This document shows, one piece after another, positions 10,303-48,522 of a stretch of 64,000 nt of DNA. Numbering within the stretch: the stretch's first letter is position 1; each line of letters begins with the position of its first letter. The notes beneath the pieces are model-generated. The model had not been told where the DNA came from and did not search any database. It saw nothing but the letters and a program-made list of their open reading frames with translations. Source of the DNA: Acholoe squamosa (taxonomy: Eukaryota; Annelida; Polychaeta; Phyllodocida; Polynoidae). The DNA lies in the NCBI GenBank assembly GCA_949317995.1, contig OX439047.1, forward strand, positions 2,342,501 to 2,406,500. The letters run 5' to 3'. The translations under genes were made by a program, and so were the position numbers.

Positions 10303-11472
10303 CTAGGCTGTTTCCACAGTCACCGGGGAGGGCTGGTGGTTTAGAAAATTAGCAATAGTCTGCATGTTTGACCTTGCGGTCTCCTCCTGTTGTTCGTCAA
10401 TAATTATATCTGTTGTATTTTCCAGTGCTGTCATGGTCACCGGACTGGTGCCACAATCATTCTGGAGAAGCATGGAGTAGTACAGTCCTTTGTTTTTAAG
10501 GGCTGGTATGGTACTGAACCTAGTGCGCCAAGGTAGGTGTATCACCTGAGGGAGGTGATAAGCAAATTCTCCTCTCTGTGTTGTTATAACTGCTGGTCCA
10601 TTCCAGGTAAATATAGCCTTAGGTAGTGGGAAGGTTTTAACCACTATATCCTTATAGGTAGGGGCAGCTGCTGATTTAATCTCATCAAATTCATGTGGTA
10701 TTGGCCTCAAGGGTACCGCGAAGTTTGAGTCTCCACAATATATTTTAAAATATATTGTGGGATTTGTGCGCTTGGCCACATTTTTCTTGCCACAGTGTGT
10801 CTGTGCAAATTTCTTAAGGTACTTCATTATTCTGTAGGCTGAGTAGATGGTCAGGGTGAATAATATAGCAATTATCAGGGTGTGGGTTTCCTGAATTGTG
10901 AGGAAAGGGGTGTGGGTTTCCTCTGTAGGGGTTAATTTGGTAGGATTCTTATCTGGGAGCAATTTGTGTAGGGGCAGCTCGGTGACTAGTCTGAATGCTT
11001 TGGCTGTAGGCAGGTAGGCTACAGTCCCTCCTAGTCTGTATAATTTGAGTAGTATGTATACTATAAAAATGTGAGCTGATATCCCTAGGATGAGTGCTAA
11101 GCTTTGGAAGATTGGATGCTCTGTAACTCGACGTAGGTATGATTCCTCGTAGCGTGTTTCCATTTCCTTATTAAGGTTGGAGGCATCTTTTAATACTGTT
11201 TTGGCAAAGGGCTCTAAATTTAGTTGAGTAATATCATCCATGATTGGATTTTCCTGTAGTTTTTCTAAGGTTCTAGAAAGGTTTACTACTGGGAACTTTG
11301 GAAGATTCTCTCTTTCATCTGGTTTGGTTTCAGAAATTTTGTTAAGTGCTGCCATGAATGGTAAATTAATTGTCTTGAGAATGTAATGAAATGATAAGGT
11401 TGAGTTACAGGGCAACCTTGTGTTTGGAAGAGAAAATTCTCCTACACTGATTGTGCACCCACAGGGTACACC
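10303..11472 (-). pseudogene. env: Element A env-like gene, C-terminal part (severed)
   Basis: This is the remainder of A env after the composite insertion at CACC (11469-11472). It encodes the end of the ectodomain, a hydrophobic segment (LALILGISAHIFIVYILL) typical of a membrane anchor, a Pro/Thr-rich stretch, a second hydrophobic segment (LIIAILFTLTIYSAY), and then ~160 residues with no recognised domain. It is collinear with the second half of B env. As it stands it lacks signal peptide and N-terminal ectodomain and cannot make the protein. Confidence 0.85.
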
Positions 11473-11891
11473 TGTAGTGGTTCGTCTCGTTAAGTTAGAT
11501 TAAATCATAACGAAGAGAGAGAAAAGTTTCCGGGTAGGCAACCGAGCTTTTATTTCAGAGCTTGCGTTACATACGATCACAGCCTCAGAGGACTACATGC
11601 TGCTAGTGCATTCGGTTACCCTTTCGGGTAACAACCTGGTTGAGCAGTGGGTAAACCACTACTGAGGAACCTAGGGCTAGGACCAGCCTTATATAGGGGA
11701 AAAGCCCGCGAAAACTCAGACCGGCCACGTGACGTGTGGCGGACGAGTGGTAGGCCCCCTGGTGTAGTGGATACGAACCCAGAGGCAGGTGCTGCCACCT
11801 GCCATCCGGATTCCCCCACCACACCCGAAGGACCTAGGTCTGAGTCTCACGGGTGCATGAACGTTAAAGTGTAAAATACCATACCCCTACA
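11473..11891 (-). repeat. Element C 3' LTR
   Basis: 419 bp, starting TGTAGGGG and ending CTACA in element orientation. A TATATAA box lies at about 11690-11696 (minus strand) and AATAAA at about 11549-11554. A CACGTG and a nearby GACGTG string lie near 11726-11735. It is identical to 24451-24869. Confidence 0.95.
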
Positions 11892-13201: not shown

Positions 13202-16200
13202 TTACTGTTCCATGTTCTCCTCGGGTGGCTGGTTTGGACCCGGTTGTTGAGCCAGTGGCTGAACAGGGGGGTTCATACCAGTTCCATCCGTAGGTGCCAA
13301 TGCGGGGACAGCAGGTGTAAGTTTCACCTTTTGGCGTGCTTCGAACAGCTTCAAAGCATGCTCAGGTGTACCGTCCCAGTTATCCATGATAACTCCGAAG
13401 ACCTTGAAGAACTTTTGCTGGTTCTTCATGTTCGTTGCTCGTTCTAGGTCGAGCATCTGAGAAGCTGTTTCCTTCTCGGATAGGGCCTCCTGCCGCAGAT
13501 TAGCAGCTTCCTGCTTATCTTTGGCAACATCCGCTTTGATCTGAGTCGAGATTCGGTTGATCTCTGACTTCTGGATCGCGTCAATACACTGGAGAGTGCT
13601 CGACACGGTCCGACGATACATGTCCAGGTGGAGGTTTTCCAGATGGTGCTGTAGCGTCTCAAATTGTTTGCTCTGGATATTGCAAGACAATTTGTCCTCC
13701 TTCTTGAAGAAGGTCTCCACTGTCTGGATCAGCTTAGGCCGATGAACCACAGCACCAGGTGGGGGTACCTGACCCTGAGGCTTCGGCTGTGCTCCAGACC
13801 CACTCGCAGTGACAGCTACCTGCGTGTGCGAAGAAGCAACCGCAGTAGTAACCGCACTAGCAGTGGTCGAAGAAGGGCCTTGAGTTGGTAATCCCTGAAC
13901 CAGGGGCAACCGTGACAATTCCCTTCTAAGGTCTTTGGCCGTCAACAATGGTGCGGGTGGACGTTGTCTCACCACAGCACTCATTGTAGGTCGGGGAGCT
14001 TGACCTCCTACTGTCGGCAGTTCCTGCTTGACCCTCCCGTACTGATCAAAGATTTGCATCTCTGGTCCGGGTGGGCCCATAGCAGGGTACTGCTTCGGGT
14101 CTTTGACATTCAAAGGCGCGTGTTTCCGGGCGGACTGGCCACTCGGTCCACTGACACCAAAGAATGTCGGGTTCTGTGCACCTCGTGGAGTTGGTGCTCG
14201 CCCATAATGGGAAGGAGTTCCAGTAGGAGATGGAAGATGTGGCTTCTTCCTTCCCCCATTTGTCTGTCTCTCCAGCGCCTCCAGTGGTGACCTGGCTCGG
14301 CTTGGAGATTCAGACGCCTGTCTCTTCCTATCTGCTACAGAGGGTCCCTGGCGGTAATCCCTGCGGCTTCGGACCTGTTCTCCGGATGGAGTTACATAAG
14401 CCCCACCACGACGGCGGGCCTTGTTGCTTCTCCATTCGTTTAACAGATCGTACTCCTCCTGAGCGTACTCTAGTTTGCCGGACCCGGGAGTCTGGGCAAA
14501 CCGAGCCTTTAGTTTCTGGTTAGTACCAGGAACCGTAGGCGCAAACTGCTTCGTACTCGGTGTGAGGGAAGCCAACTTCTCTGCATTGAGGCCCCTAAGG
14601 TTGCCATAGAGTTCGGAGTGAATTTTCATCACCCGATCTATGGCTGCCTCCAGGCCCTCTCCATGCGAAGTCACATAGTGCCGGACCATGTCTCCGCGTC
14701 GGGGGGTGACACATCCTGTGCATTTAGCACATTTCTTGCCAACCTCTCGGTCGCAGACATATTCCGGCCTCTGGTGCATATGAACCTCCACGAGATGACG
14801 AAGGAACGCGTCTTTCTCGATGAAGAATTCAACCTCACCCTCACTTTGAGTACAACGTTGGAAGGGACAATCCTTACGATCCTCCCCGTAGTACTCATCT
14901 AGAGCAAACTTGAGCTTGCCCTTCTGGTCATAATTGTACAGACCATTGGGCGAATTCTTAACGAATTCCCAATAGATCCAGTACATATTGGCCGGCTTTC
15001 TATCAGAGAGCTTCTTGCGAAGCCACTCCTCCATATCTTCCTGCCTCTCACAGGTGATCCGAGGGGGCAGTCTCCATACGGATTTACTCCCCTTCAGGTG
15101 TCCCCTGTGTAGAGGAATGAAGTCGGCAAAGTTGCTATTGGCGTTAGCCCAGATAGCAGCCTCTTGCTCGTCAGTCGGAGTGATATCCACAACTGGGTCA
15201 ACCGGCTCCTCTCCCTCCGGGTCGGATGGTACATCCACAGGTTGCACAACGGGTTGTTGACCCGCGAGGACCTGGGCTGCAGCATCTTGAGCGTCTCCAC
15301 TCAAATCGGCCATTACGTCGTGTAGCTTGACGATTGGCACACCGAGCTCAACTTTTACGGTTGGGACAGCCGGTTCAGCTTCTGTATTATCAGCTTGAAC
15401 GTCTACCTCGATAGGTTCAGGTTTGCGTTGGTCAACCTTCTTCTTATTCCTCCTGCGGGATCTGCCGTTAGTAGAAGTGCCAGGCTCGGATGCGTCCGTC
15501 TCATTGCCGGAGACATCCGAAGCCTTAGCGCCCTTCTTATTGGCCGAGCGTGGAGACACCCGACGGGTTCGGGTACTGTCGTCCACACTCGTGCTGGTAG
15601 AGGGTTCGGTTCCTGACCGCTTCCCTTTACCCTTACCTTTGGTGGGGGTTGTTTTACCCTTTCCACCAGCTGCTTTCTCCTTTACTTGCTCAGTCTTCGT
15701 AGGGGTAGACTGAGCAGTTTTAAGGGAAACATCTGCATCAGGTAGGGCCTTCTCAGGTACCACTGCTGCGCCTCCCAAGGTGGGAGCTTCAGCAGGAGAC
15801 ATGAGACGGTCCATCCGATCGGCCATCTTGGCTGTTACTTGCACGGGTGCGGGTCCGGGTACTAACTCCGGATGCGCCAGTGCATACTGTCTCTCCAATA
15901 GACGTACTACGAGGTCTTGTATTACCCCGAGTCTGTCTAGTGGAGACACACCAATACGGGCCTCTTCTGCCTCAATGGTTTGAGACGTAATAGGGACCCC
16001 TGGACAGTAATCCACAACAGCGTTACCTGCTGCTTCATACTCATCCGCTGTGCTTAACAGTAGGATCTGGTCTCTGTCTATGTATCTAGAGACCTCATCT
16101 GCCTTGACACCGGTGTAACCCGTTTTGTCAGACACATAGGAAGGCCTATAAGAGGTATTCCTTCGGAAAGCCATTTCTGCGTCCCAGACGGCTTTACGAA

Positions 16201-16879
16201 ACCATAAGTGGACTACCAATCCTTTGGCCATCTGATGGTAATCCATCAACCAGGACTCCGGAAAGGTATTAGCCCACTGCGGATGAGCACATTCCCAGAT
16301 TGCGTTGACAACACGCTCGTCAACCTCTCTGGGCGTCCCATAACAGGTGGGTATCAGCATTTCCTCGGAAATTGCTAACATCCGTCCGTCATATGGACCG
16401 GCTACATCATGCCATTCGGGACTGTCTGGGAAGGGCAGCTCTAGGTGCATTGGCCTGTCAACCGGAGAAGCAGGTCCCAAAGCACCGAATGAGGTACTCC
16501 CACCAAGACGGGGCGGCAGTTGAGGGGGAGGTGGCATCAGAGCCCTGTCAAGAGACTGGGCTCCTGCCGGTTCTCCACTCAAACCTTCGGATGGAGGGGC
16601 TACATAAGGCTCACCTACATCAATTTGTTGTTGAACGCCTCGGCGTTCAGGACTAACTTGTCTGGAGTTGTCGGATGCGTCGTAGAACGATTCTACGTCG
16701 CTATCGTCTACTCCAGAGAAGTACTGATCAACATTCATTTGTTGATCCATTTGATCACAATCAGCATCGTATTGCTGATCGTCGTATGTATAAGTGGGAC
16801 TCTTGGGAGAACCACTTCCATACTCTGGCGGGGTGCTGGCACCGGCACCGCCGCCAAGACGGACGGCCTCTTCTGCCAT
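13202..16879 (-). CDS. Element C ORF3: large protein with zinc-finger-like motifs
   Basis: 1225 residues from ATG 16879 (the frame is open 12 codons further to a TTG, but ATGGCAGAAGAG is the first ATG). It lies downstream of pol where env would be. It has no signal peptide and no hydrophobic segment. Order: acidic N-terminus; a charged, conserved-looking block at roughly residues 160-360; a Lys/Ser/Thr-rich basic region; then about residues 660-750 with Cys/His groups (CPFQRC...FLRHLVEVHMH, then CAKCTGC...MVRHYVTSH) like two irregular C2H2 fingers; a Pro/Gln-rich segment; and a coiled-coil-like C-terminus. It could bind nucleic acid or chromatin. I do not recognise the family. The uninterrupted frame argues that it is needed. 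Confidence 0.75.
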   Translation of the reverse strand: MAEEAVRLGGGAGASTPPEYGSGSPKSPTYTYDDQQYDADCDQMDQQMNVDQYFSGVDDSDVESFYDASDNSRQVSPERRGVQQQIDVGEPYVAPPSEGLSGEPAGAQSLDRALMPPPPQLPPRLGGSTSFGALGPASPVDRPMHLELPFPDSPEWHDVAGPYDGRMLAISEEMLIPTCYGTPREVDERVVNAIWECAHPQWANTFPESWLMDYHQMAKGLVVHLWFRKAVWDAEMAFRRNTSYRPSYVSDKTGYTGVKADEVSRYIDRDQILLLSTADEYEAAGNAVVDYCPGVPITSQTIEAEEARIGVSPLDRLGVIQDLVVRLLERQYALAHPELVPGPAPVQVTAKMADRMDRLMSPAEAPTLGGAAVVPEKALPDADVSLKTAQSTPTKTEQVKEKAAGGKGKTTPTKGKGKGKRSGTEPSTSTSVDDSTRTRRVSPRSANKKGAKASDVSGNETDASEPGTSTNGRSRRRNKKKVDQRKPEPIEVDVQADNTEAEPAVPTVKVELGVPIVKLHDVMADLSGDAQDAAAQVLAGQQPVVQPVDVPSDPEGEEPVDPVVDITPTDEQEAAIWANANSNFADFIPLHRGHLKGSKSVWRLPPRITCERQEDMEEWLRKKLSDRKPANMYWIYWEFVKNSPNGLYNYDQKGKLKFALDEYYGEDRKDCPFQRCTQSEGEVEFFIEKDAFLRHLVEVHMHQRPEYVCDREVGKKCAKCTGCVTPRRGDMVRHYVTSHGEGLEAAIDRVMKIHSELYGNLRGLNAEKLASLTPSTKQFAPTVPGTNQKLKARFAQTPGSGKLEYAQEEYDLLNEWRSNKARRRGGAYVTPSGEQVRSRRDYRQGPSVADRKRQASESPSRARSPLEALERQTNGGRKKPHLPSPTGTPSHYGRAPTPRGAQNPTFFGVSGPSGQSARKHAPLNVKDPKQYPAMGPPGPEMQIFDQYGRVKQELPTVGGQAPRPTMSAVVRQRPPAPLLTAKDLRRELSRLPLVQGLPTQGPSSTTASAVTTAVASSHTQVAVTASGSGAQPKPQGQVPPPGAVVHRPKLIQTVETFFKKEDKLSCNIQSKQFETLQHHLENLHLDMYRRTVSSTLQCIDAIQKSEINRISTQIKADVAKDKQEAANLRQEALSEKETASQMLDLERATNMKNQQKFFKVFGVIMDNWDGTPEHALKLFEARQKVKLTPAVPALAPTDGTGMNPPVQPLAQQPGPNQPPEENMEQ

Positions 16880-17433
16880 CGACAGAAGTGGCTGTTCGGG
16901 GATAAAATATCCCAATCCACCGGATAAGCAGTGAGTACTGCTTACCCAGTGAAAGGCGGGTGCCTTTTAACGAGGGCACACCTCGGAATATGGCTGTCAC
17001 GGGCTATCAGACTCCAACAAGAGCAAGACCACCCTCGGCCACGTCTTCTTCCTTCGCAGGAATAAGACAATATGGCGGGATACTCGAACTTGAATCGCTG
17101 CGCATGATCAAACCGGCGCCTCACGTGACCATTCGAAAATGGGTCAACAACTTTCCCGCGTGCCCTTAATTAGGTCACGCGCCCTTACATAAAAACAATA
17201 CAATACCCGATCGGTCGTCCGTCCGTACTCAGGGTTCGACTATGACAATTCGCTAGGTATTCTGGAGTTTATGGATAGCATAAGCATATCCACCGGATTA
17301 TCCGTCCAAAACCATGGGTTCATTGTCATAGGACCTTTTCCAGAGACTCTTGACCGGCTCAAATATACATTGAACTAGGTTACAACATATAACAGTACAC
17401 AGTACAGGACAACACACTCGTTGTGTTAACAGG
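16880..17433 (-). other. Element C spacer between pol and ORF3
   Basis: About 550 bp with no open gene. ORF3 must be reached by splicing, an internal promoter or reinitiation; no single signal stands out by eye. Confidence 0.5.
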
Positions 17434-20400
17434 CTAGGTTACGGCAGTCTGTAGCAACCTTGGACTGCGTCTAAGAGGTTTTGAGGCCTCTTTTATTGAC
17501 CTGGTATCCATAAGAGCCTTTTCCAAGGTCTTCTTAGCCTTAGAGGGACCTTTCCTCTTATTTTTACCTGCGCCTGCCGAGACTTTTTGTATCTTCCCCT
17601 GCTTTCCGGATGTTACGACAGGGGGCACCACCCTCTTCGGGTCTGCAACCTTCCGTGGCCGCCCGGGTCCTCGCTTTCGGGTCGGTACCACTTCGAGTTG
17701 CTTAACACGACTCTGTTCCATTACTTCCAATAGACCATCGCCGTACATTTCGGTGGAGGTATCCCTCCCCCTCCATGGGCGTAGTCTCGCTACATTTGAC
17801 TTGTAACATTTACCAAGCTGTGATTTAATAATCACTGTGCAATCACTAATAACCTGAGTTATAGTGAAAGGTCCATCCCAATTACTGGCTAATTTCAGGT
17901 TAGCTAGAGGTTGGTGTAGACGCAGTACTCTATCCCCTAGATTAAAAAATCTAGCTTTTAGACCTGTGTCATAGCCAACTTTCTGCCAACGCGCAGTTTT
18001 CTGCAACTCGTCTCTAACCCTCTCATAGGCTTGTTTGAAATTATCCCGTAGGGATTCTACAAACATCACCTGGCAAGGGGCTTCCGGATTCATTCTTATT
18101 ACGCCGAACACCAAATCGGCTGGCATAATCAAATCCTCTCCAAAAACGAGGAGATTAGGAGAACAGTTTGTGCTCGAATGCACAGTGCCATTATAGGCAT
18201 GTACCACGAATTCACATTGTTCATCCCAATCATCCATCTGCTCATTTACCAGAGACTTCAATACTTGGATCAAAGTCCTATTGAATCTCTCTACTTGTCC
18301 ATCGCTCTGTGGTCTATAGGGATTAGTTCTTGTCTTGCAGATCGCCAGACAATTACACATCTCCTGCCACAGACTAGACTCAAATTCTCTGCCTTGGTCA
18401 CTATGTAACATGAGTGGGACACCTAGGTGCAGCACCCACCCTTTTACAAAGGCCATAGCACAAGTAACAGCCTTATGATCCGGTAAAGGGAACACTCGGG
18501 TGTACTTGGTATAATAATCAGACACGACCATCATACACGTGTTGCCACTAGGAGTGGGGGGAATCCCACTAATAATGTCAACAGCTATTCTAGCAAACCT
18601 TACACCAAACAGTTCCTGGGATAATGGCAGCTTGCCTAACCCGGGTCCTGGTTTGTTCTTACAGCACTCGGGACAGGTCTCCACCCATCGGGTGAGATCT
18701 GTACTCATGCCGGGCCAATAGTATCGTCTGGTCAGACGTTCTAGAGACCTTTTCTTTCCAAAGTGCCCACTAGTTCTATGTCCATGACAGAAATACATAA
18801 TATCTCGTCGCATAGCACTAGGTATGACAACTTGCAAGGTTTTGTTCCTATTAGAATGGTTCTTCCATCGAAACAGAATACCATCCCGGACTTTTAGCTC
18901 GGCCCATTGAGCTAAGAATCGTCTCATCTCTCTGTTCTCCAATGACACTACGGGTCTTGGGGGACAGATACCCTGATTAAGGAATTTAATCAAACGTGAT
19001 GTGACTGCATCAGACTTCTGGAACTGCCTGATGGTCTCCAAGGACCAATTCAAGACATGTTCCGGATGGGTTTCGAATGGAACTCGAACCCCTGCCAACA
19101 CAGCATTGTGTGCTCCACAATCAGTGCACTCAGCATTTGCACATTTCCTCACTGGGATTCTAGACAAAGCATCTGCATTCAAATGCTTTGCCCCGGCTCG
19201 GTGTTCAATCTGGCTGTGATTTAGACCGAATTCGGATAGGTGCGCTAACCAGCGACCTATCATCCCCTCTGCATCTTTGAAGTTCAATAACCATCTGAGG
19301 GAAGAGTGATCAGTCCGTAGAGTGAAATCACTCCCCCACAAAAAGTGCTTGAACTTCTTCGTATAGACCACCACAGCCAACAACTCACGTTTAGTGGTAC
19401 AATAGTTTCTTTGAGATTTACTCAACGTGTTACTAGCGAAGGCTATAGGAACTTCGACCCCATCCTGGACCTGAGAAAGGGCGGCTCCTATGCTTTCATT
19501 ACTAGCATCAGTATCTAGAATGAAATGATCATTCTCCGTGGGGTATCTCAACACAGGTGTGATAGCAAACAAATCCTTTATTTTCATAAAGGCCTCGTCT
19601 TGCTCGGGTCCCCAAGGGAATCGTTCCTTTCTGATCCCGGGTGTCCAGTGGGACAAACTCTGGATAGGAAAGGCAACCCTTGAATATCCTGGGATAAAGT
19701 CCCGGTAGTAGGAACAGAATCCGAGGAAGGACCTAACTTCTTTCGCATTCGTGGGTGCTTGCCAATTTGACACGGCATCCAGTTTCTCCGGATCGGCTTT
19801 AATCCCTTCATTCGAGATTATTCGCCCCAAGTAATTAATAGATCTTTTGAAAAGATCGCACTTCTTGGGTTTCAGCTTCAAACCATTAGTTATGATCCTT
19901 TCCAGGACCATACCTAAATTTTCCAAGCATTCTTCGTATGTCTTTCCAAAGACAATCACATCGTCTAGATAGACGAGACATTTCTTCCATAAAAGGTCAC
20001 TTAATAAAGTTTCCATCATGGCTTCAAATGTCGCCGGTGCATTGCACAATCCAAACGGCATCACATTATACTGGAATAATCCAATATGACTGGAAAAGGC
20101 CGTCTTCTCCATATCTTTCGGATGCATACCCACTTGCCAGTACCCGGATTGTAAGTCTAGAGAGCAATACCATTGCTTACCTCCAAGGGAGTCTATAGTC
20201 TCATCGATCCGTGGTAAGGGATATGAATTCTTCTTGGTCATACCATTCAATTTCCGGTAATCTATGCAGAAACGGATGCTACCATCTTTCTTGGTCACCA
20301 TGCACACAGGGCTAGACCAAGGACTGGTTGATGGAATTATTACATCCTGTTCAAGCATTTTAGCTATCTCCTCCTCAGCTACCCTTTTTTTGGCTAGTGG

Positions 20401-21627
20401 GAGTCTTCTATAAGGAATCTTAAAAGGTTCATTCTCACCAGTGTCAATCGTATGCAGTACTTTATCGGTACGCCCCAATTGTTCACTCGGTGCTGCAAAA
20501 GCTTTACGGTACTTGTACAACAAGTCAGTTAGAGCTTCACGTTGTTCATCACTTTCTACATGGCTTTCGGCTACTAGAGTGTCTAGTTCCGGGCTCCTTT
20601 CGGGTGAGGAAGGGGCTCCGGGTGCCGAAACATGTTTACAGTCTTCTATCAATTCGGATAAGACAACCGATCCAAGGATCGTATCCTTCTGTACATAGAC
20701 AGTCTTGTTACCGGTATTGGATATAGGAACCACCGTCCAAGCAGCGTTAGCTACTAGAACATCAGCGGATTCCAATCCGATACTTGACAACATGGCCATG
20801 TCTGGCTCTACAACTCCAGTTTTTCCTGAAAACTGTCTGTCCGCTCGACATAAGACATCACAGGCTGTGCCTGGTGGTATCTTAACAGTCTGGGCTACAC
20901 TGGCTACACTGCTTACTTGCCTAAGTACACATTGTACTTCGAGATGGTACGGGTCTCTCACTTCCAATATTCCCCTCTGGGAATCTAACCTTGCTCCATA
21001 TAATGCAGCAAAATCCAGACCGAGTATACCATCATCCGCGATGTTCGCCACAGTAGGGGTAAGGATGAAGTCCTTATCTTCCTGTAGACTGAACCTCATA
21101 CATGTTCTACCGAACGTTTGTATCATGCTACCGTCGGCCGTACGAGCATTTCCTTCCGTTGTGAAAGTTTCATGATTCGTAGGCAAAAGATCGTAGAATC
21201 TCTTAGCAATACAGGAGTGGCTAGCACCCGTATCGACAAGAAACTCAGCGGATCTACCACTCACAGATACAACTGCGTACCACCTCCTACCTTTCAAGTA
21301 GGTAGGACTACTTGCATACTTAGCAAGTTCCGTCTTAGCGCCGAGGTCAAATCCACATCCCTTTAAGAATTCGAGACAAGGATGACCCGGGGGGAACTGG
21401 GCACACCCCACCCTGGCCAACTCATTGGCCGCTCCCTCTGGACTGATATCGGGTTTCCCCTCTGTGTTCTTCTGCCGGTTCTTGACACCTGGTGTACTAT
21501 CAGTCTCCCCAGCCTCATGAGTAAGGAACTGATCAGGCTCCTTAGCTTCACTGCTGGGCGAAATCGCTAGAGGATTCTTGCCAGTACCGCAAGCTGCGAT
21601 AGGCTGGCAGTCATGGCAATCACTCAC
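17434..21627 (-). CDS. pol: Element C pol polyprotein (PR-RT-RNaseH-IN)
   Basis: 1397 residues counted from a GTG at 21627, but the frame is continuous with the -1 frame at the gag stop, so it is probably made as Gag-Pol. Protease LVDTGASHSC (Asp about 132); reverse transcriptase with LVYLDDVIVFG near 551; RNase H with LDTDASNESIG near 704; integrase zinc finger H-H-C-C (GHRTSGH ... CPECC) near 946-987; catalytic D-D-E near 1016, 1072 and 1111 (VERFNR); and a GPF-type module (NWDGPF) near 1252. The basic tail GPGRPRK resembles an AT-hook. Domain order RT-RH-IN is that of Ty3/gypsy. All key catalytic motifs are present. Confidence 0.95.
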   Translation of the reverse strand: MSDCHDCQPIAACGTGKNPLAISPSSEAKEPDQFLTHEAGETDSTPGVKNRQKNTEGKPDISPEGAANELARVGCAQFPPGHPCLEFLKGCGFDLGAKTELAKYASSPTYLKGRRWYAVVSVSGRSAEFLVDTGASHSCIAKRFYDLLPTNHETFTTEGNARTADGSMIQTFGRTCMRFSLQEDKDFILTPTVANIADDGILGLDFAALYGARLDSQRGILEVRDPYHLEVQCVLRQVSSVASVAQTVKIPPGTACDVLCRADRQFSGKTGVVEPDMAMLSSIGLESADVLVANAAWTVVPISNTGNKTVYVQKDTILGSVVLSELIEDCKHVSAPGAPSSPERSPELDTLVAESHVESDEQREALTDLLYKYRKAFAAPSEQLGRTDKVLHTIDTGENEPFKIPYRRLPLAKKRVAEEEIAKMLEQDVIIPSTSPWSSPVCMVTKKDGSIRFCIDYRKLNGMTKKNSYPLPRIDETIDSLGGKQWYCSLDLQSGYWQVGMHPKDMEKTAFSSHIGLFQYNVMPFGLCNAPATFEAMMETLLSDLLWKKCLVYLDDVIVFGKTYEECLENLGMVLERIITNGLKLKPKKCDLFKRSINYLGRIISNEGIKADPEKLDAVSNWQAPTNAKEVRSFLGFCSYYRDFIPGYSRVAFPIQSLSHWTPGIRKERFPWGPEQDEAFMKIKDLFAITPVLRYPTENDHFILDTDASNESIGAALSQVQDGVEVPIAFASNTLSKSQRNYCTTKRELLAVVVYTKKFKHFLWGSDFTLRTDHSSLRWLLNFKDAEGMIGRWLAHLSEFGLNHSQIEHRAGAKHLNADALSRIPVRKCANAECTDCGAHNAVLAGVRVPFETHPEHVLNWSLETIRQFQKSDAVTSRLIKFLNQGICPPRPVVSLENREMRRFLAQWAELKVRDGILFRWKNHSNRNKTLQVVIPSAMRRDIMYFCHGHRTSGHFGKKRSLERLTRRYYWPGMSTDLTRWVETCPECCKNKPGPGLGKLPLSQELFGVRFARIAVDIISGIPPTPSGNTCMMVVSDYYTKYTRVFPLPDHKAVTCAMAFVKGWVLHLGVPLMLHSDQGREFESSLWQEMCNCLAICKTRTNPYRPQSDGQVERFNRTLIQVLKSLVNEQMDDWDEQCEFVVHAYNGTVHSSTNCSPNLLVFGEDLIMPADLVFGVIRMNPEAPCQVMFVESLRDNFKQAYERVRDELQKTARWQKVGYDTGLKARFFNLGDRVLRLHQPLANLKLASNWDGPFTITQVISDCTVIIKSQLGKCYKSNVARLRPWRGRDTSTEMYGDGLLEVMEQSRVKQLEVVPTRKRGPGRPRKVADPKRVVPPVVTSGKQGKIQKVSAGAGKNKRKGPSKAKKTLEKALMDTRSIKEASKPLRRSPRLLQTAVT

Positions 21628-21665
21628 TCTGGGGGTAATCCGGTTGCCATTGTGGACACCCCCTC

Positions 21666-21675
21666 TCAGTTTTCC
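21666..21675 (-). promoter_or_regulatory. Putative -1 frameshift site, element C gag/pol
   Basis: On the minus strand GGAAAAC is followed directly by the gag stop TGA. A -1 slip here enters the pol frame with no stop (CTG AGA GGG GGT...). A possible 6-bp stem GGGGGT/ACCCCC follows. The same heptamer precedes the gag stop in A and B. It is not a canonical X-XXY-YYZ site. Confidence 0.5.
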
Positions 21676-24407
21676 TTCTTCACTGAGTCCTCCTTACCCG
21701 GATTGCTCCGGTAACGAGTGTTTCTATAAACTGGCTTATCTGCCTCACACTCGGCAGCATAATGCCCAGTTTCCTGACATCGGAAGCATGTCACAACAGT
21801 CCTATCAGGCTTAGGCCTCCTAAGATTTTCAGTAATCTTCTTTACCAAATTGTTAACCAGGTCCTCTGATAAAGAAGGACCCGTCGTGGGTTTGGTATCG
21901 GGTTGAGTCACAGGAGGTTTAGAAGTGATCACTTTCTCCTTGACGTAACCCGGTTTCTTTCCCCAGTTCCGGTTGTACCGGGGGTTCCCTTGGCCAATGG
22001 CCCCAACGTTTTCATCTTCGTCAGGTTCCCCTGATTCGGATGAATCGGTTTCGGGTATTCCCTCCGGGATTATCATTGCTGACATCCGTTGGGGTACCTT
22101 CCCGGCAAAGATACGGGCCTTTCGATCATAATGATCTAGGGACTGGAACAAATCTGTCAAAGAGGCATCATTCTTCCAAGCTTCACAGGCTACTGTCCTG
22201 TGTTCTTGATTCCGCAATCCTTCAATGAATTGTTTAAACATCTCATCTAGGAAGCATTCATCATCTAGTCTCCATTGAGGTCTGGCTTTATGCAACAGTC
22301 GTTGACATTCTAAGCCGAACACTTTGGCAGACTCCTTGGGCTTCTGTGTTCTTTTAGTGAACGTCAGCCAAGGGTCTTCTCCAACTATATTCCCATATAA
22401 ATATGAAGCAATCTCTATGAGTTCATCATACTTCATATGGGCTGAGAGTCCTGTTATTTGAGAATCTCTCCATTGTTCCACGGCTCCTTTTCCGTCGCCT
22501 TCCTTTAACCAGCATACTAAATAAGGCAGAGCTTCCGCTTTACCCCATCCATTGCAGTTAAAGACATCCGCGCAGCCTTGATACTCCTCCTTCCAAGGGT
22601 TCTTGGCATTAAAGGGGGTAGGTATCTTAGCTACTCTACGAGCCGGATTCGTGGATCCAGTAAGGGTTAAACCCTTACTCCATTCCATGATCTCCGTATC
22701 GTCCAGACCTTGATTGTAACAATCAACACCTAAGTTAGCAATCGCTGCATTAGAATCATGCAGCGCTTGTAACCCTGGAGAAAGAGATACTCGGCGACTG
22801 AGTCTCTTTTTCCTTGGAGGATTCGTACCATAAGTACTTCCAAAGCCTCCGGATGGTGGTCCTCCTCCACCTCCTGATCCCCCTGCTCCGTATGGAGGCA
22901 CCTGTGAAAAGGTGTATCCACTGGTTTGGGGAGCCGGCCCTGGACCATTGGTGGGTTGTGTATTTCCACCAAAGCTAAAGAAACCACTATTGGGATTAGT
23001 GTTTCCTCCTGTTCCATACGACTGATTTCCATTATTGAAACCAGTCCCACTGGCAGAGGGTCTGCTCCTGGAACGATCGCTTGAGGGTCCGGATCCTTGA
23101 TCACATCCGGATTGCCCCCCAGCTGTACTGGAACCTCCGGGTGCTCGTCCGGTTGTTCCTCCGGACGTGTTCCGGGTGTTACCATTGGACGGATTCGTTC
23201 CTGTTTGGGACTGATTCCATCCATACTGGGCATACGGGCCATTAGGTCCCCCTAAAGGTGACTGTTGTGGCCATCCGCCGTCAAAGGTGGAGCTTCCTGC
23301 CGAGCGGCTTTGTTTAGCTCCACTCGCAGAATTATCCCCTTTATTTCCCGTACCTAGACCAAGAGGTATAGAGGTATTATCTGTAAATCTAACCTGATGA
23401 CTCTTTACTCCTTCATAACGAGGTACAGTTGTCTCTGTTACCCCGTCATTGCCCCTCAAAGAGAACATCTGGTTACTTGTCGTGTTTAGGGCAATTCCTG
23501 AAACAGTGAAGTCTGATTCAAGAGTGCCTACTGCACGACCAGTATCTTCTAGATACTTTGACATCTGGATAGCTTTAGCCTCCAGTTCGGAATAATCATC
23601 CATCATTTTAGTCTGTTTAACAGCCAAATCTGTGGATTCGCGTATCAATTGATCTTTGAGTTTTTCATGCTCATCGGTCTGTTTTTGGTACGTTTCCCGA
23701 GCATCTTTGAAGGCTGATTCTATTTTCTTCAGCTCTTCTTGATACTTGCCGTAGGCCGATTGAGTTGAATTTAACTCTTGTTTAGTTCTATTCAACTCAT
23801 CATACGAGGCTCTGTATTCCAGATCCGCCGTATATAGTGCATCACGATACTGTTCGTGCTGGAGTTGAAAATCTTGCTTTTCTTTCTCCATCTGATCCAA
23901 CAACAATTGTTGTTGGCGTCTACAACTCTGATCGTAATCGAGACGTTCCGATATCAACTGTTTGTTTTCAGTCAGAATCTTGTCTCGGGTTCCGGTCAGT
24001 GTAATAAGATCCTTCTGGATCTTCTCGTATTCAGCTCTCATGTCTTCAAGCTCGTCCATTTTGTTCTTTTCGAATCCACATTTTTGGTGTTTAATTCGAG
24101 AACTGTATGGAGTTTCAAACATACCTGCACTAGGCTTTGGTACCTCAAATGGTAATTTACCAGATTGAGCAGTACTTTTATGCATTGGTGCAGGTTTCGA
24201 AGTACCTCCTGGCATGAATAAGGAGTCTCCAAATTCATCCAGTTCATGATGTAAGTTTCTTCTTACATCTTCTAACCCATCAGGGTAGTGTTCTAGTGGA
24301 TCCCTCCACTCCGTACCTTGGGGTGGTGACTTGATTTCACCATCCTCCATCGGGGAGTCTAGCTCACGATTTGAGCCATTTCCCCTAACTGGGCTCAGCT
24401 CAGTCAT
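21666..24407 (-). CDS. gag: Element C gag
   Basis: 913 residues from ATG 24407. Order: short charged N-terminus; long coiled coil (about residues 60-290, heptad-like E/K/Q/L); Gly/Ser/Asn-rich flexible region to about 560; a capsid-like helical region (WKEEYQGCADVF, LPYLVCWLKEG, QWRDS) of the retrotransposon gag type; and one CCHC zinc knuckle CFRCQETGHYAAEC near 869-882, followed by a short basic tail. It would assemble the particle and bind RNA. It is large for a Ty3 gag because of the coiled coil and the glycine-rich insert. Confidence 0.93.
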   Translation of the reverse strand: MTELSPVRGNGSNRELDSPMEDGEIKSPPQGTEWRDPLEHYPDGLEDVRRNLHHELDEFGDSLFMPGGTSKPAPMHKSTAQSGKLPFEVPKPSAGMFETPYSSRIKHQKCGFEKNKMDELEDMRAEYEKIQKDLITLTGTRDKILTENKQLISERLDYDQSCRRQQQLLLDQMEKEKQDFQLQHEQYRDALYTADLEYRASYDELNRTKQELNSTQSAYGKYQEELKKIESAFKDARETYQKQTDEHEKLKDQLIRESTDLAVKQTKMMDDYSELEAKAIQMSKYLEDTGRAVGTLESDFTVSGIALNTTSNQMFSLRGNDGVTETTVPRYEGVKSHQVRFTDNTSIPLGLGTGNKGDNSASGAKQSRSAGSSTFDGGWPQQSPLGGPNGPYAQYGWNQSQTGTNPSNGNTRNTSGGTTGRAPGGSSTAGGQSGCDQGSGPSSDRSRSRPSASGTGFNNGNQSYGTGGNTNPNSGFFSFGGNTQPTNGPGPAPQTSGYTFSQVPPYGAGGSGGGGGPPSGGFGSTYGTNPPRKKRLSRRVSLSPGLQALHDSNAAIANLGVDCYNQGLDDTEIMEWSKGLTLTGSTNPARRVAKIPTPFNAKNPWKEEYQGCADVFNCNGWGKAEALPYLVCWLKEGDGKGAVEQWRDSQITGLSAHMKYDELIEIASYLYGNIVGEDPWLTFTKRTQKPKESAKVFGLECQRLLHKARPQWRLDDECFLDEMFKQFIEGLRNQEHRTVACEAWKNDASLTDLFQSLDHYDRKARIFAGKVPQRMSAMIIPEGIPETDSSESGEPDEDENVGAIGQGNPRYNRNWGKKPGYVKEKVITSKPPVTQPDTKPTTGPSLSEDLVNNLVKKITENLRRPKPDRTVVTCFRCQETGHYAAECEADKPVYRNTRYRSNPGKEDSVKKEN

Positions 24408-24437
24408 TTCTGACTGCGCTTACCCGAAGACCAACTG

Positions 24438-24449
24438 GTCACGGCACCA
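24438..24449 (-). other. Primer-binding site of element C
   Basis: TGGTGCCGTGAC starts one base after the 5' LTR on the minus strand. It matches the 3' end expected of animal tRNA-His (GTCACGGCA-CCA) over 12 bases, a different primer from that of the miniature element and of A/B. Confidence 0.7.
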
Positions 24450-24450
24450 G

Positions 24451-24869
24451 TGTAGTGGTTCGTCTCGTTAAGTTAGATTAAATCATAACGAAGAGAGAGA
24501 AAAGTTTCCGGGTAGGCAACCGAGCTTTTATTTCAGAGCTTGCGTTACATACGATCACAGCCTCAGAGGACTACATGCTGCTAGTGCATTCGGTTACCCT
24601 TTCGGGTAACAACCTGGTTGAGCAGTGGGTAAACCACTACTGAGGAACCTAGGGCTAGGACCAGCCTTATATAGGGGAAAAGCCCGCGAAAACTCAGACC
24701 GGCCACGTGACGTGTGGCGGACGAGTGGTAGGCCCCCTGGTGTAGTGGATACGAACCCAGAGGCAGGTGCTGCCACCTGCCATCCGGATTCCCCCACCAC
24801 ACCCGAAGGACCTAGGTCTGAGTCTCACGGGTGCATGAACGTTAAAGTGTAAAATACCATACCCCTACA
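24451..24869 (-). repeat. Element C 5' LTR
   Basis: 419 bp, identical to 11473-11891. The identity extends three bases past the U3 end (CTG at 24870-24872), matching polypurine-side bases. Confidence 0.95.
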
Positions 24870-24875
24870 CTGGAG

Positions 24876-25096
24876 TGTAGGGGCAGTAATTCCCTGTACT
24901 CGGTGGCAGACCCCCAGGGGCGGGTCTCCGGGTAATCACTGCCCCCCTAGTGTGTATCATACCGATCCAGGTGTGGATGGAAGGTGGAAATGTCAGGCCA
25001 GGGGAAGTAGCTCAGAGGAAGAGCAGCCGCTTCGAAGTTGGAGGGCCCCGGGTTCGAGTCCCGGTTTCTCCAAGAACATTTTCACCGACCTCTACA
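24876..25096 (+). repeat. Miniature element 5' LTR
   Basis: 221 bp. The first ~75 bases can fold into a long imperfect hairpin (TAGGGGCAGT near the start against ACTGCCCCCCTA near 24944-24955, with an inner AGACCC/GGGTCT stem). The tRNA-like gene occupies 25001-25072, and 24 bases follow it to the LTR end. Confidence 0.9.
25001..25072 (+). tRNA. tRNA-like gene in the 5' LTR of the miniature element
   Basis: 72 nt with cloverleaf parts: acceptor GGGGAAG/TTTCTCC (two G-T pairs), TA, D stem GCTC/GAGC, T stem CCGGG/CCCGG with loop TTCGAGT, and discriminator A; CCA is not encoded. A box TAGCTCAGAGG at 25008-25018 and B box GGTTCGAGTCC at 25051-25061 match the Pol III consensus, and TTTT follows at 25079-25082. 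The anticodon arm is poor: GCCGC against TTGGA gives only about three pairs around loop TTCGAAG (formal anticodon CGA). Acceptor and T arms resemble animal tRNA-Ala. It thus looks kept for transcription and for its 3' end, not for decoding. Confidence 0.75.
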
Positions 25097-25097
25097 G

Positions 25098-25113
25098 TGG
25101 TGGAGAAACCGAG
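25098..25113 (+). other. Primer-binding site complementary to the element's own tRNA-like RNA
   Basis: TGGTGGAGAAACCGAG begins one base after the 5' LTR. With CCA added to the tRNA-like RNA of the LTR (…CCCGGTTTCTCCA), 14 consecutive bases pair and 15 of 16 overall. This includes TGG pairing with the added CCA, as in normal retroelement priming. Confidence 0.85.
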
Positions 25114-25351
25114 CATCCTAACACAATCACAGATTGAAGATATGTGTGCCTGCTCATGTCTTAACACAATCATGGATTGAGGACTCGGGAACTGGGCCGA
25201 TATGATACAGATGACGCTTCGACCAATCTGGTAATTGTACCGGTACATCCACTGGGAAGTCAGGAGTGCCCTAACACTGCTTGATAAAGCCTCAATTTCC
25301 AGGTAACTGGTTTGAGGGGGAATGCCGGGTGCTGGTGGATGGTGGTTGAAG
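25114..25351 (+). other. Noncoding interior of the miniature element
   Basis: No open frame of note. A short imperfect direct repeat (AACACAATCA.AGATTGA-like) occurs at 25120-25177. Packaging or dimer signals may lie here but cannot be identified by eye. Confidence 0.5.
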
Positions 25352-25365
25352 CTGATGGGGAGGAG
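25352..25365 (+). other. Polypurine tract of the miniature element
   Basis: GATGGGGAGGAG directly precedes the 3' LTR at 25366. The last four bases GGAG also precede the 5' LTR at 24872-24875. Confidence 0.7.
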
Positions 25366-25586
25366 TGTAGGGGCAGTAATTCCCTGTACTCGGTGGCAGA
25401 CCCCCAGGGGCGGGTCTCCGGGTAATCACTGCCCCCCTAGTGTGTATCATACCGATCCAGGTGTGGATGGAAGGTGGAAATGTCAGGCCAGGGGAAGTAG
25501 CTCAGAGGAAGAGCAGCCGCTTCGAAGTTGGAGGGCCCCGGGTTCGAGTCCCGGTTTCTCCAAGAACATTTTCACCGACCTCTACA
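25366..25586 (+). repeat. Miniature element 3' LTR
   Basis: 221 bp, identical to the 5' LTR. Its U5 end (CTACA, 25586) is the right border of the whole C/miniature composite. Confidence 0.9.
25491..25562 (+). tRNA. tRNA-like gene in the 3' LTR of the miniature element
   Basis: Identical second copy of the 72-nt tRNA-like gene, with the same A and B boxes and TTTT at 25569-25572. Each full-length insertion therefore delivers two copies. Confidence 0.75.
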
Positions 25587-27063
25587 CACCTATGATTGAG
25601 TAGGACTGGGCTTTTCGAGTTTCAGACGTTTTACCATGGCAGTTGATAAAGTAATGGGGTTCATTAGTAGTGACCAGATACTCATCTTCAGGAATGGAAA
25701 TAGCATGGGTGGTAGGTGCTTGCAGTGGTGAAACTGTAAACTTGCAATGTTCCTTAATCTGTTGAGCCTGGTTAGTAAAAATGGCTACAGGGCATGTAGG
25801 CCTGTGTTTATAGATCCTACCATTTACATCTCTGCATACCTTTACTGTAGTACCTTCACATGCCTGCATATCTGCTGAGTCCAATTCGATGAATAATGAT
25901 TCGTCGTAAGATACTGCTAGAAGCTCAGTTGTGGTTTGCAACTTGGTGACTCCTCTGGTGGGGGTCCCCTGTGTGTCTATAGGCATGGGTGATGTAATCA
26001 TTTGGTACAGTTTGAAGGTTGAGGTGGTAGATTGTATTATAATGTCCAGATGAATATATATATGGTGAGCTGAGTAAGTGTATGAGGTCAGCTTCTGTGA
26101 ATAATAGAAATCTAAGTCATTAATTGCGACTTGTGCTCCAGGGTGTGTAATCCTAAGTTTGTTATTAATGTCAATTAAGTATCTAGCAAGGTCTGAGGGT
26201 GGTACTATATCAGGGGTTAGGATCCCTGATGATAGCATCCTCAGGGCTGCATTTGTCCTTTGCAGTGATTGAACTGTATTCATTCTCGCTGCTATGATAA
26301 TTAATGCATCATTTAATACTTGCATTTTTTCCCTTTGAGTTTTCTCGTGCCTTGAATATGAGTCAAGTGACCTGGACATGTTAGAGGCCCACAGGTTGAC
26401 GGTGTCACCTATGGTGTTGATTGTGCTGTCCAGTACCTTCTTATCTTGGATGTATGCTTTAACAAACTTATCTTGTCTGTCTGTGATCTTTTCAATGAGA
26501 CTAGCTGCTTCCTGATCTTGTTTAGCAAATTTTCTTAGTATTTCATCTATGTTCTTGAGCTGTCCCATTACTTGGTTTACATCTTCTACTGTGGCTAGAC
26601 CTAGCACACCGCGAAACAGGGGTGCTAGAAAACCCAGTATGGCCTCTCTTTTGGCCTTGTCCAATGTGTTTATGGGGTTGGATAGGAACAATTTGATGGA
26701 GGCTAATGTTTCATTTATCTCCTTGTCTGCAATTTCCAGCAAGGTGTCAAGCTCTTTGGCTTGTTGGATAATTTGACCAGAGGTATGATCTTGTAGAGTA
26801 GGAGTGGTCAAATGGAGTATTCTATCCCTTATGGATCCTTGGGTAACGGGTGCCCGAGGTATCTTGTAGGGGATAGCTAACAATAGTGTTGTGGTTGTAT
26901 GTCCATTGACCAATGGTTGAGGGCTAGGTTTGAATACTACTCCTATGTTTTGTCTCACCACAGGTGTATAACCTGCAGTAAGTGGTTCTATAGTATATAA
27001 TAACAGCATAGTTAGCAGTATGGGTGAAACTCTCAGTCTCCCCATGGTGCTTGTGTAAAGCAA
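25587..27063 (-). pseudogene. env: Element A env-like gene, N-terminal part (severed)
   Basis: About 492 residues. A hydrophobic signal-peptide-like start (second Met, MGRLRVSPILLTMLLLY) is followed by an ectodomain with a short Arg-Gly-Val-Leu-Gly segment near residue 165, helical heptad-like stretches, and a Cys-containing region. The order and the phrase LLAVSYDESLFIEL resemble errantivirus env/baculovirus F-type fusion proteins; this is family-level inference. The frame ends at CACC (25587-25590), where the composite inserted. The remainder is at 10303-11472. Confidence 0.8.
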
Positions 27064-35120: not shown

Positions 35121-36461
35121 TGTCATACTAGTAATTGGCATGATCAAGTTGTCATATGAGAAATATCATATGACTAGTGGTGTATGGAGTAAATACATCA
35201 GGCTCATAATAAATAGTGTTATTTCCAGTTGTCACTGGTTTATTCAGCTCTAGGCAACATGTAAGAAATATCAATCATACAGTAGTTGGTATGTAGGTAA
35301 TTTGTACATACAGTAAACATACAGTAATTTATAAAGTACAATGTTCAGTTCCACTCCACCTGTGAGGTAACAATAATACAATGTCCAGCATAGTTCTAGG
35401 TGGGTTCCCACACCTAGCTCCTGGCCTGCTGCTTAGAGGAATAATGTAATAATGAATAACTTTACCCTCTGGTGGATGTCTTGGAGAAGATAGCCTCTGG
35501 CCACTAATGATGGAAACCCATGCCTGTCTAGCATAGTTTCACCATAGTGCAGTGGTATAGCAGGTAGCAGGAGATGACTGGAGATGTTACCTCTGGAGTG
35601 GTTCTTGGTGTTCTGTCCTTCTGGAGGTGCAGACAGGCTATTTGTAGCAAATCTTGGAAAAGCACCTCCAGACTGACTGGAGCCAGCAGCATCTGCCTGA
35701 CTCTACAATTGTTTGAGGGGAGTCTTTCATGTGTCACAGGGGGACAAAGGACCCCCATGGGCGCCGCTGTGTCCCCCATTGTCTTGGTCGGTTCTGCAAC
35801 TTCAGACCCTCATATCTCGGTCGTTTATGCGTTTATAACCGCCATTTTGCGCATGCGCGGAGTTGAATATGCCAAGTTTATAATGCCCGTTGGATAGGCG
35901 CGTAACTCCCGCCGGTTTGTCTGTAGGGAACTCGGAGCTCCTTTCAGTCTCCATGGCATAACTTCCTTAATAGTTCCGCCTTGATCTTGGGCTCATTTTG
36001 ACCGTCTAATTATGGGCTTTCCATAAATACTTTGATATTTGACCTAGCTCGCTCAGGAGCGAAGCTAGAGCGACCGGAAGGTTATGGCGTCGTGCTTATG
36101 TAACCCATTGTTCAGTTATTAGAGTGCTCAGACACTCATGACGGCGTCAGCGGTGCTCAGGCACCCGTGACGGCCAGTTGCATTCACTTACAAGTTATTA
36201 ATTTGTGCATTGAGCCATGAGGTCGCACACTGAGACCCTCATTTTTATTATATTGTGCAGTGAACCATTAGGTCGGAGCCTTTGATGTCAGAGAGAGTGT
36301 TTGTAACTGACCTGGCTGGTGTGCAGTGGGGCATGAACGCTCTTATACAAAGTTTGAGCGCTCTTATAGCTCTCAGAACCAACCTATGTATTAATTTCAT
36401 AGATATCCTTTGATTAATACAAAATATGTTACAATTTATGGAATAATAAAATGGTATATCA
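35121..36461 (-). repeat. Element A 5' LTR
   Basis: 1341 bp, from TGATATACC (36461, minus) to TAGTATGACA (35121). TTTATT (AATAAA on the minus strand) is at 35239-35244. An intact NRF1-like GCGCATGCGC is at 35849-35858. It is followed by the GCCC duplication at 36462-36465. Confidence 0.93.
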
Positions 36462-37931
36462 GCCCAACAGAAGGCCATGGAAGACCAGCGGAAGTCCCTA
36501 GAGAGACAACAACAACAGATAGCAGATCTCATGAAGATGGTATCATCCCAGACCCCACAACCTCCCACACCAGCCATCACACCTGTTGTCACACCATCTG
36601 CCTCTGGATCCAAGGATGACATCATAATCTCCATGGTGTCCAACATGATCAAACTCATAGACAGAAAACAACAGGACGACAGAAAGATCAGGCTGCATGA
36701 GGTAACAAAACCCAAAACTTTTTCACACCCATCACCACTCATGTCAACAGCATTATTTATTGATCACAAATTCCCAGAATATCTGAAGGATAAGTACAAA
36801 GTAACAGACAGTGACACCATGGTAACATATTTACCCAAGTACCTTGAAGGACAAGCACTAGCTTGGTTTGAATCCTTCAGGGAAAGTGCCACACCTGATA
36901 TGTTGACATGGACCAATGTAGTGAATAAATTAAAAGAGTATTTTGCTACTCGAGAAAATATCATCTCAAGGACAGCACTCCGTGCACAAAAGATAGATGA
37001 ACCTGTCCTAGACTATGCATGCCATCTCAGGAAAGTGTGTAATGCCCAACGCCAAAGCGATGAAATCCTAAGCAAGGCATTTACCCAAGGCATGAGGCCC
37101 TGGATCTCTGTAGCTCTTGAAAACAAGAAAATAGACTCTTTTGACCAAGCCCTAGACCTAGCCTTAGAGGTTGAGACCCAAGAAAGATCTAGGAAGATAA
37201 GGGAGGCAGAGTCTAACCCACAGCCTACTAAGAAAAAGGTCCAGGAAATCAGCACTAGTGCAGATGAAGATGTTAACCTAATGTCTAGTGCCCATGTAAG
37301 GCAACAGGAGGCTAAGGTTACATCAAAAGACCCTACCGGTAGATATAGAGGAAATAACTATGACCCCAACTACCAATCCAATAGAGGTAGAGGTAGGGGG
37401 GGCAACAACAACAACCGGGGGGGTCACAACAGTAGGAAAGACAACAGCTCTTCCAACTCCAACAATGGTAACTCTTCATACAGTGATAGGAGAGACAGAA
37501 CTCCAAGTAATGGCAGATCCTATAATAATCAAGGATCCAACAGTAAGAGCCATAGTCCACATAGGAACTACAACTCTGGATCCTACAACAACTCTGGATC
37601 CTACAACAACAGCCAGGGTTCAAACAACTCTGGATCCTATAATCAAGGATCCAACAGTAGAAGCCATAGTCCACATAGGAACTACAACAGTTGATCCTAC
37701 AACAACAATGGTGCCCACAACAACCAGAGATCCAACAACTCTGGTCAATACAGCAACTCTGGTCAATATAACCAGGGTTCCAACTCACGCCAGGAGGATT
37801 ACAAACCTGACACAAGAGGTTACCAGGGGAACCAACACAGTAACCCCCAAATACCACCTCATGTAATGGATCAAATCTCCAAGCTCCTGGTGGCAAGCAT
37901 CTCAACCGCCCCACAGAACCAGGAAAACTAG
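36462..37931 (+). pseudogene. gag: Element B gag, 3' fragment with a nonsense codon
   Basis: This continues the B gag frame after the A insertion: end of the coiled coil, capsid region, then the Arg-Gly and Ser/Tyr/Asn-rich tail without zinc knuckle. A TGA at 37692-37694 replaces the GGA codon found in A, truncating the protein about 80 codons early. Otherwise it is collinear with A gag to the TAG at 37929. Confidence 0.88.
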
Positions 37932-48517: not shown

Positions 48518-48522
48518 TATTC

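Follow-up and report, generated by a model that had tools for sequence, protein, structure and literature searches.

To start reverse transcription, retroviruses and LTR elements are believed to rely on host tRNAs or, in the case of Tf1, on the 5′ end of their own RNA. In the 64,000-nucleotide stretch of Acholoe squamosa DNA analyzed here (the window), each LTR of a TRIM contains a tRNA-like gene, and the primer binding site (PBS) of the element matches it, raising the question of whether this element supplies its own primer, as an earlier note on the sequence had claimed.

The TRIM (24876-25586; Table 1) is 711 bp long and has two identical 221-bp LTRs (225 nt identical including 4 nt upstream), as LTR-LTR comparison (24876-25096 vs 25366-25586) confirmed. 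Its interior contains no ORF of at least 150 aa, except for one at 25582-27063 that merely touches the end of the element. The polypurine tract is conserved upstream of the 3′ LTR in the fetched copies, one of which has GTGGAGGAG instead.

Table 1. Coordinates in the window of the TRIM, its Ty3/gypsy partner, and the features that join and flank them
Feature	Position	Strand	Remarks
TRIM 5′ LTR	24876..25096	+	221 bp, identical to 3′ LTR, TG...CA ends
tRNA-like gene, 5′ LTR	25001..25072	+	ARAGORN, Rfam; inferred Pol III A/B boxes; primer sequence
TTTT, possible Pol III terminator	25079..25082	+	repeated at 25569-25572
TRIM PBS TGGTGGAGAAACCG	25098..25111	+	14/14 complementary to own tRNA-like 3′ end + CCA
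Positions 15-18 past PBS (AGCA)	25112..25115	+	three changed to tRNA complement (GGAC) in copy L145
Polypurine tract GGGGAGGAG	25357..25365	+	adjoins 3′ LTR
TRIM 3′ LTR	25366..25586	+	221 bp, identical to 5′ LTR
tRNA-like gene, 3′ LTR	25491..25562	+	ARAGORN, Rfam; proposed TRIM RNA 3′ end after tRNase Z cleavage and CCA addition
Partner Ty3/gypsy element	11473-24869	-	13.4 kb, joined head to head to TRIM
Partner 3′ LTR	11473..11891	-	419 bp
Partner third ORF	13202..16915	-	1237 aa, no Pfam match
Partner pol ORF	17434..21627	-	protease plus RT, RNase H, and integrase, the last three by Pfam
Partner gag-like ORF	21666..24407	-	CCHC zinc knuckle
Partner PBS TGGTGCCGTGACC	24437..24449	-	unlike TRIM PBS
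Partner 5′ LTR	24451..24869	-	LTR of Ty3/gypsy partner
Junction CTGGAG	24870..24875	+	between gypsy LTR and TRIM LTR
TSD CACC, left copy of fused unit	11469..11472	+	4 bp
TSD CACC, right copy of fused unit	25587..25590	+	4 bp

ARAGORN called a 72-nt tRNA in both LTRs. The Infernal-type check of 25001-25072 that had been proposed gave a score of 47 bits with Rfam RF00005 (gathering threshold 29, E = 6.7e-07), and the two tRNA matches alone reach the gathering threshold in the Rfam scan of the window. The acceptor, D, and T arms agree with the RF00005 model and also form in an in silico fold of the 72 nt, but four anticodon-stem positions are flagged as non-pairs, and the stem is not paired as it is in a translating tRNA gene. 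Anticodon loops differ among TRIM families (CTTCGAAG, CCTGCAGG, TCTCGAGA), and between subfamilies both T loops and anticodon loops vary while the acceptor end is constant. The only two TTTT runs in the TRIM start at 25079 and 25569, each six bases past the tRNA-like sequence. These results bear out the earlier description of a 72-nt tRNA-like gene with A and B boxes and TTTT in each LTR, degenerate in its decoding arm but good in its acceptor and T arms.

The PBS starts one base past the 5′ LTR and is the reverse complement of CGGTTTCTCCA plus an untemplated CCA, so that the complementarity claimed for it holds at every position. CCA is not encoded in the LTR, where the DNA after the tRNA-like sequence continues AGAACATTTT. 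The PBS occurs exactly only once in the window (both strands checked), and the combined pattern of B box, tRNA 3′ end, and PBS gives one match there vs. none in 100 shuffles.

The host genome (1.48 Gb, 63 contigs) was searched for more 221-bp LTR copies, as the earlier note had suggested, yielding 24 distinct places among the best 40 of 2033 candidates; 15 LTRs among the same best 40 (window copies included) have the top score and 100% identity. The TRIM has a 4-bp target site duplication (TSD) in 11 of 20 fetched places (two being low-complexity sites), with seven others being fusions or tandems and two having no TSD, in samples that are not random, the best 40 of 2033 LTR candidates having been scored and the 9.9-kb fetches having favored odd-flanked copies. 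Tandem TRIM arrays with common LTRs (LTR-int-LTR-int-LTR) are seen at L157, L159, L191/L192, and L196/L197.

This tRNA 3′ end, followed by another base than in the window TRIM, was found in 1861 further genome places (0 in the backwards control), many of them paired ~450-740 bases apart and thus belonging to other TRIM subfamilies. Thirty loci, with pairs preferred, were fetched from the first 100 listed of the 1861, all on contig C1. Four have no intact LTR end and three no PBS after the LTR end; the remaining 23 match at 14/14 positions (17 loci), with one mismatch (five loci) or with three (one locus). Most PBSs match over 14 nt only and then read AG rather than GG. Scans of viral contigs with the 14-mer PBS matched at least 120 stretches with no relation to the TRIM, and with the tRNA-end pattern six stretches; the pattern of B box, tRNA end, and PBS had no match in the viral contigs, nor did a genome-contig collection scanned for the TRIM.

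Fossil DNA copies of the primer were sought in the host genome with a pattern consisting of the LTR end, N, TGG, and TGGAGAAACCGGGA (14 tRNA-complementary bases). Thirty-six genome places matched, compared with 0 in the backwards control. Since TGG is absent after the tRNA-like sequence in LTR DNA, the TGG of the fossils derives from the CCA tail of a primer. In 19 of the 36, the entire tRNA-like sequence and at least 11 nt of further TRIM U3 are copied, and in five, 24-61 nt of the tRNA-like sequence. The other 12 stop at nt 18-21, the usual m1A58/T-loop stop, with ends that are imprecise because the following bases can equally be internal sequence; one locus of this class, L219, is rearranged. 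In HIV-1, plus-strand DNA likewise stops at m1A58 of the tRNA primer, nt 18 (PMC13191261). None of the 36 fossils terminates at the 5′ end of the tRNA-like sequence.

Longer fetches covered 14 regions with 15 junctions. At ten of these, beyond U3 the copy takes in the complementary strand of the polypurine tract flank (only five bases of it in L247). Two others, L250 and L256, are full LTR palindromes (TGTAGGGG...CCCCTACA) with TSDs of CATT and AGGG, respectively, and among the remaining three (L246, L254, and the second junction of L255) are a switch to a different TRIM, decay, and a stop at the LTR end. One copy, L145, departs from the 18 others in the alignment at 25112, 25114, and 25115, just past the 14-nt PBS, and every change helps to extend the match to its own tRNA to 18 nt. 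The 19 fossils that run through the tRNA-like sequence into TRIM U3 show that reverse transcription started there from TRIM RNA with a CCA tail and not from a host tRNA, and the U3 and polypurine tract behind the copied tRNA-like sequence place that primer at the 3′ end of TRIM RNA. It follows from these sequences that, in at least some elements, copying began from RNA of TRIM tRNA-like genes rather than from host tRNA.

A different origin of the usual primer would be a host tRNA identical in its final 11 bases, from which the LTR tRNA descends, self-priming being a rare accident. The host tRNA nearest to the TRIM tRNA-like sequence is, we take it, tRNA-Ala. A host tRNA-Ala pattern matched 93 genome places, 91 of them tRNA-Ala-like; nt 66-67 are CA or CG in all 91, with CA, not TT, in the genuine-looking matches and TT in none of the 93. 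Lacking TT at these positions, host tRNA-Ala mismatches the TRIM PBS at 2/14 positions, and it was rejected as primer, a matching 3′ end being present in 0/91 genes found. The proposed hunt for a nuclear tRNA with this 3′ end thus returned none among the 91 tRNA-Ala-like genes. Many of the 91 lie on C15 in one cluster, where tRNA-Ala genes alternate in tandem units (C15:5.088-5.142 Mb).

A host primer is favored by the AG at PBS positions 15-16 of most copies, which the TRIM tRNA does not explain, and by the extent of our survey, which covered 30 fetched of 100 listed of the 1861 places with this 3′ end. A host tRNA explaining the AG-type PBS would need CTCGG preceded by TG, CA, or AA. The T loop plus CTCGGTTTCTCCA occurs in 26 genome places, but the required nt 59-60 (TG, CA, or AA, for the three common PBS forms) occur in 0/26, and these places look like point mutants of TRIM tRNAs. 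A genome search for fossils whose primer fits the common PBS past nt 14 found 0 places, compared with 36 for the TRIM type, and an AG-type host tRNA was rejected as primer on both counts. We consider a host tRNA as the usual primer unlikely.

Covariation between the PBS and the tRNA-like sequence, another check suggested earlier, was evident at one position. In 25 of 28 readable loci, PBS nt 18 can base-pair with nt 59 of the tRNA-like sequence in the adjoining LTR; in a permutation test (mean 14.0), 0/200,000 permutations reached 25, a figure that overstates the strength, as the loci are related to each other, and that gives no clean probability. The set omits eight of the 36 fossil loci: L219, L220, L223, L224, L228, L230, and L233, for which the fetched piece is without the LTR tRNA, and L216, for which the call is unreliable. 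The three exceptions (L212, L213, and L222) have the primer type of a different TRIM family, which we read as priming in trans; with 3/28 loci primed from another family, the "own" primer is that of the family, not of the copy. The central claim that the TRIM supplies its own primer tRNA is hence supported by the fossils, by the covariation at PBS nt 18, and by the differing 3′ ends of tRNA-Ala.

One serious possibility as to the form of this primer, if a somewhat doubtful one, is that the free 72-nt tRNA-like RNA normally serves and that complete TRIM RNA priming with its 3′ end is a by-product, visible since only palindromes with two U3 ends integrate. The 12 fossils holding an 18-21-nt copy only are compatible with a free modified tRNA, as is the fold into acceptor, D, and T arms; against this, U3 is attached in 19/36 fossils, and an end at the tRNA 5′ end is found in none. 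The earlier picture of a free tRNA primer therefore holds as to its derivation from the TRIM, but the free state does not fit the 19 long fossils. Long fossils are favored because two U3 ends can integrate, and the fossil set is filtered for integrable ends, so the frequency of each primer form is not readable from them. That the CCA-tailed 3′ end of genomic RNA, from the element's own LTR, is the regular primer, on its own or a sister PBS, is a reading we put forward tentatively, at a little short of an even chance.

Tf1 primes with the 5′ end of its own RNA, without a tRNA (PMC5371799, PMC6934838). Self-priming in cis of this kind would here involve a hairpin between the 3′ strand of the 5′ LTR tRNA and the PBS in one RNA, nicked into a primer. 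These two parts are 25 nt apart and pair in silico (131- and 64-nt folds), and as in Tf1/Tf2 the primer would come from the element itself. Unlike that of Tf1, however, the PBS here matches a CCA-tailed tRNA 3′ end: TGG, the complement of the added CCA, abuts the tRNA end where a hairpin would be expected to leave the spacer AGAACATTTT, and the U3 and polypurine tract in the fossils put the primer at the 3′ rather than the 5′ end of the RNA. With TGG in both PBS and fossils disfavoring it, the hairpin was rejected and is, in our judgment, highly improbable.

The TRIM of the window is joined to a Ty3/gypsy element, and the resulting unit (11473-25586) carries one TSD, CACC, within an otherwise uninterrupted copy of another gypsy element. 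Ordinary nested insertion at this junction was rejected, as neither element alone has a TSD and a single TSD flanks both. In the junction CTGGAG, CTG corresponds to the 3 nt adjoining the gypsy 3′ LTR and GGAG to the 4 nt adjoining the TRIM 3′ LTR, with one G in common, an arrangement that direct joining of two unprocessed cDNA ends would give. The TRIM is fused to this one Ty3/gypsy family in 9/24 places (drawn from the best 40 of 2033 candidates, with odd flanks favored), in arrangements that include head-to-head and tail-to-tail joints, the polypurine tract abutting the TRIM LTR, the TRIM LTR abutting gypsy interior sequence, and internal switches. Five whole fusions have a 4-bp TSD: that in the window (CACC), L157 (ATTA), L161/L173 (ATGG), L162/L172 (GTTA), and L165/L175 (GATG). 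These five point to the Ty3/gypsy partner as the mobilizer of the TRIM, the two cDNAs having presumably coexisted, with a single integrase acting on the ends of each.

In L159, one of the nine fusions, the gypsy element may be truly nested in the TRIM LTR, and the far side (L174) is a tandem gypsy copy. At position 5632 of this locus, the gypsy LTR lies within the anticodon arm of the tRNA-like sequence, possibly through targeting of tRNA genes. L158 has a TRIM LTR amid inverted and direct pieces of gypsy pol, resembling autointegration or repeated template switching. The expected LTRs were not found on the far sides of L155 (L170) and L158 (L176, L177). The PBS of the partner, presumably of the tRNA-His type, agrees with that presumed primer for no more than about 12-13 nt. 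Since it differs from the TRIM PBS, the TRIM and its helper have no common primer. No loci related to the gypsy RT were found in the viral-contig and genome-contig collections.

The other gypsy element is present in two copies (9586-35668 and 36035-49764 of the window) that form large inverted repeats, 97-99% complementary. Its env-like ORF lies at 43496-46137 (+) and, in the interrupted copy, at 25582-27063 (-) and 10303-11415 (-); the 493-aa part at 25582-27063 (-) has only two protein-database homologs, one of them 60% identical. The window also contains long minisatellites at 60533-63479, 53982-57720, 51885-53614, 50043-51018, and 30-1186, with units of 36, 51, 32, 126, and 75 bp, respectively, some of which retain long open frames through their periodicity.

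LTR-borne tRNA-like sequences in TRIMs were described in 2024 by Kojima as Helenus (TRIMp3; PMC10886601), and the TRIM studied here accordingly belongs to the Helenus kind, the self-match being its new part. Like Helenus as there described, it is a short LTR element without protein genes (about 0.3-1.3 kb for Helenus, 711 bp here), with a tRNA-like sequence in the LTR having A and B boxes and a degenerate anticodon arm, an internal region bounded by a PBS and a polypurine tract, and the 4-bp TSD of the animal families. A Gypsy helper is another likeness, presumed for Helenus and indicated here by the fused places (9/24, five with a shared TSD, from the best 40 of 2033); Gypsy mobilization is the inference of the Helenus author, and the helper of such elements is listed as unknown (PMC10886601). 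The helper is identified here from fusions, not from a shared PBS, the PBSs of TRIM and helper being different.

According to section 3.6 of that paper, a primer role might be expected, but complementarity between the LTR tRNA and the PBS was not found, from which the author concluded that the LTR tRNA does not contribute to initiation (PMC10886601). In contrast, the match here is 14 nt, and 18-21 nt in 12 copies, and is accompanied by primer fossils. On the published pattern, the tRNA-like sequence would be a Pol III promoter only and the PBS match an inherited coincidence, as the families without such a match in section 3.6 might lead one to expect. A promoter role cannot yield a CCA-tailed tRNA-like copy at the PBS, and for at least the fossil copies this reading is contradicted; we find it scarcely credible. 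LTR-borne tRNA-like sequences as such thus have a precedent in Helenus. The earlier statement that no LTR element with a self-matching tRNA was known agrees with our literature search, which covered papers available without subscription: none of them described an LTR element that naturally encodes its own tRNA primer, and PMC10886601 alone among the hits dealt with tRNA borne by TRIM LTRs.

We regard it as very probable that the element, a Helenus-type TRIM, uses its LTR tRNA-like gene both as a Pol III-type promoter and as the source of the reverse transcription primer, with reverse transcriptase and integrase coming from a co-packaged Ty3/gypsy element. Transcription from the tRNA-like promoter of an LTR, reading through TTTT, would yield TRIM RNA, which host tRNA 3′ processing would cut at the 3′ end of the tRNA-like sequence in the 3′ LTR before addition of the CCA tail. 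The CCA end, of TRIM RNA or of the free tRNA-like RNA, would then anneal to the PBS of a TRIM RNA of the same or sometimes a sister family and prime minus-strand DNA within gypsy particles, the partner providing reverse transcriptase and integrase. Inferred from the genomic copies are transcription by Pol III, the cut by tRNase Z with subsequent addition of CCA, annealing to another RNA in trans, and the particle steps, as well as the usual rather than occasional use of this route.

Some points weigh against this explanation. With TTTT after the tRNA-like sequence, Pol III should terminate within the 5′ LTR, and full-length RNA can arise only if the signal is read through or a further promoter is used. 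Copying of the tRNA by reverse transcriptase in each cycle should spread an 18-nt PBS, yet most stay at 14 nt. In Ty1, the primer is reportedly not inherited, and this, with the 12-13-nt match of the partner, would answer this last point, although as a patch. As to how the tRNA came to lie in the LTR, for which the earlier note had conjectured capture of the primer, simple read-through would be expected to place it antisense after U5, not sense within the LTR.

Further comparisons can be drawn with other systems. Like the plant TRIM Cassandra, the element has a Pol III gene in its LTR, which is a tRNA here and 5S rRNA there (no 5S match was found in the Rfam scan of the window); 5S rRNA is not known to act as a primer. 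Lund 1997 is said to have used a murine leukemia virus vector with an engineered tRNA-like primer supplied separately; there as here, the PBS is matched to a tRNA-like primer that is not of the host, engineered in the vector and natural in the TRIM. In plant viruses and the Mauriceville retroplasmid, and in the genomic tag idea, the genome RNA ends in a CCA-tailed tRNA-like structure, similar to the end proposed for TRIM RNA, but these are not LTR elements, and to our knowledge annealing to a PBS is not their mode of priming.

Because the primer molecule itself survives in the fossils, a genome alone suffices to tell which primer was used, where copying stopped, and whether priming occurred in trans, and the fossil pattern search is applicable to any genome with Helenus-like TRIMs. 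The TRIM-gypsy fusions with shared TSDs are in turn direct evidence for the helper of a TRIM. A primer gene in its own LTR offers the element an escape from host tRNA supply, and it could also escape control by host tRNA fragments. If the 3′ end of genomic RNA is indeed the regular primer, the TRIM would be a present-day example, within an LTR retrotransposon system, of a genome for which its own tRNA-like end is both tag and primer, and it would be independent both of host tRNA choice and of the primer of its helper.
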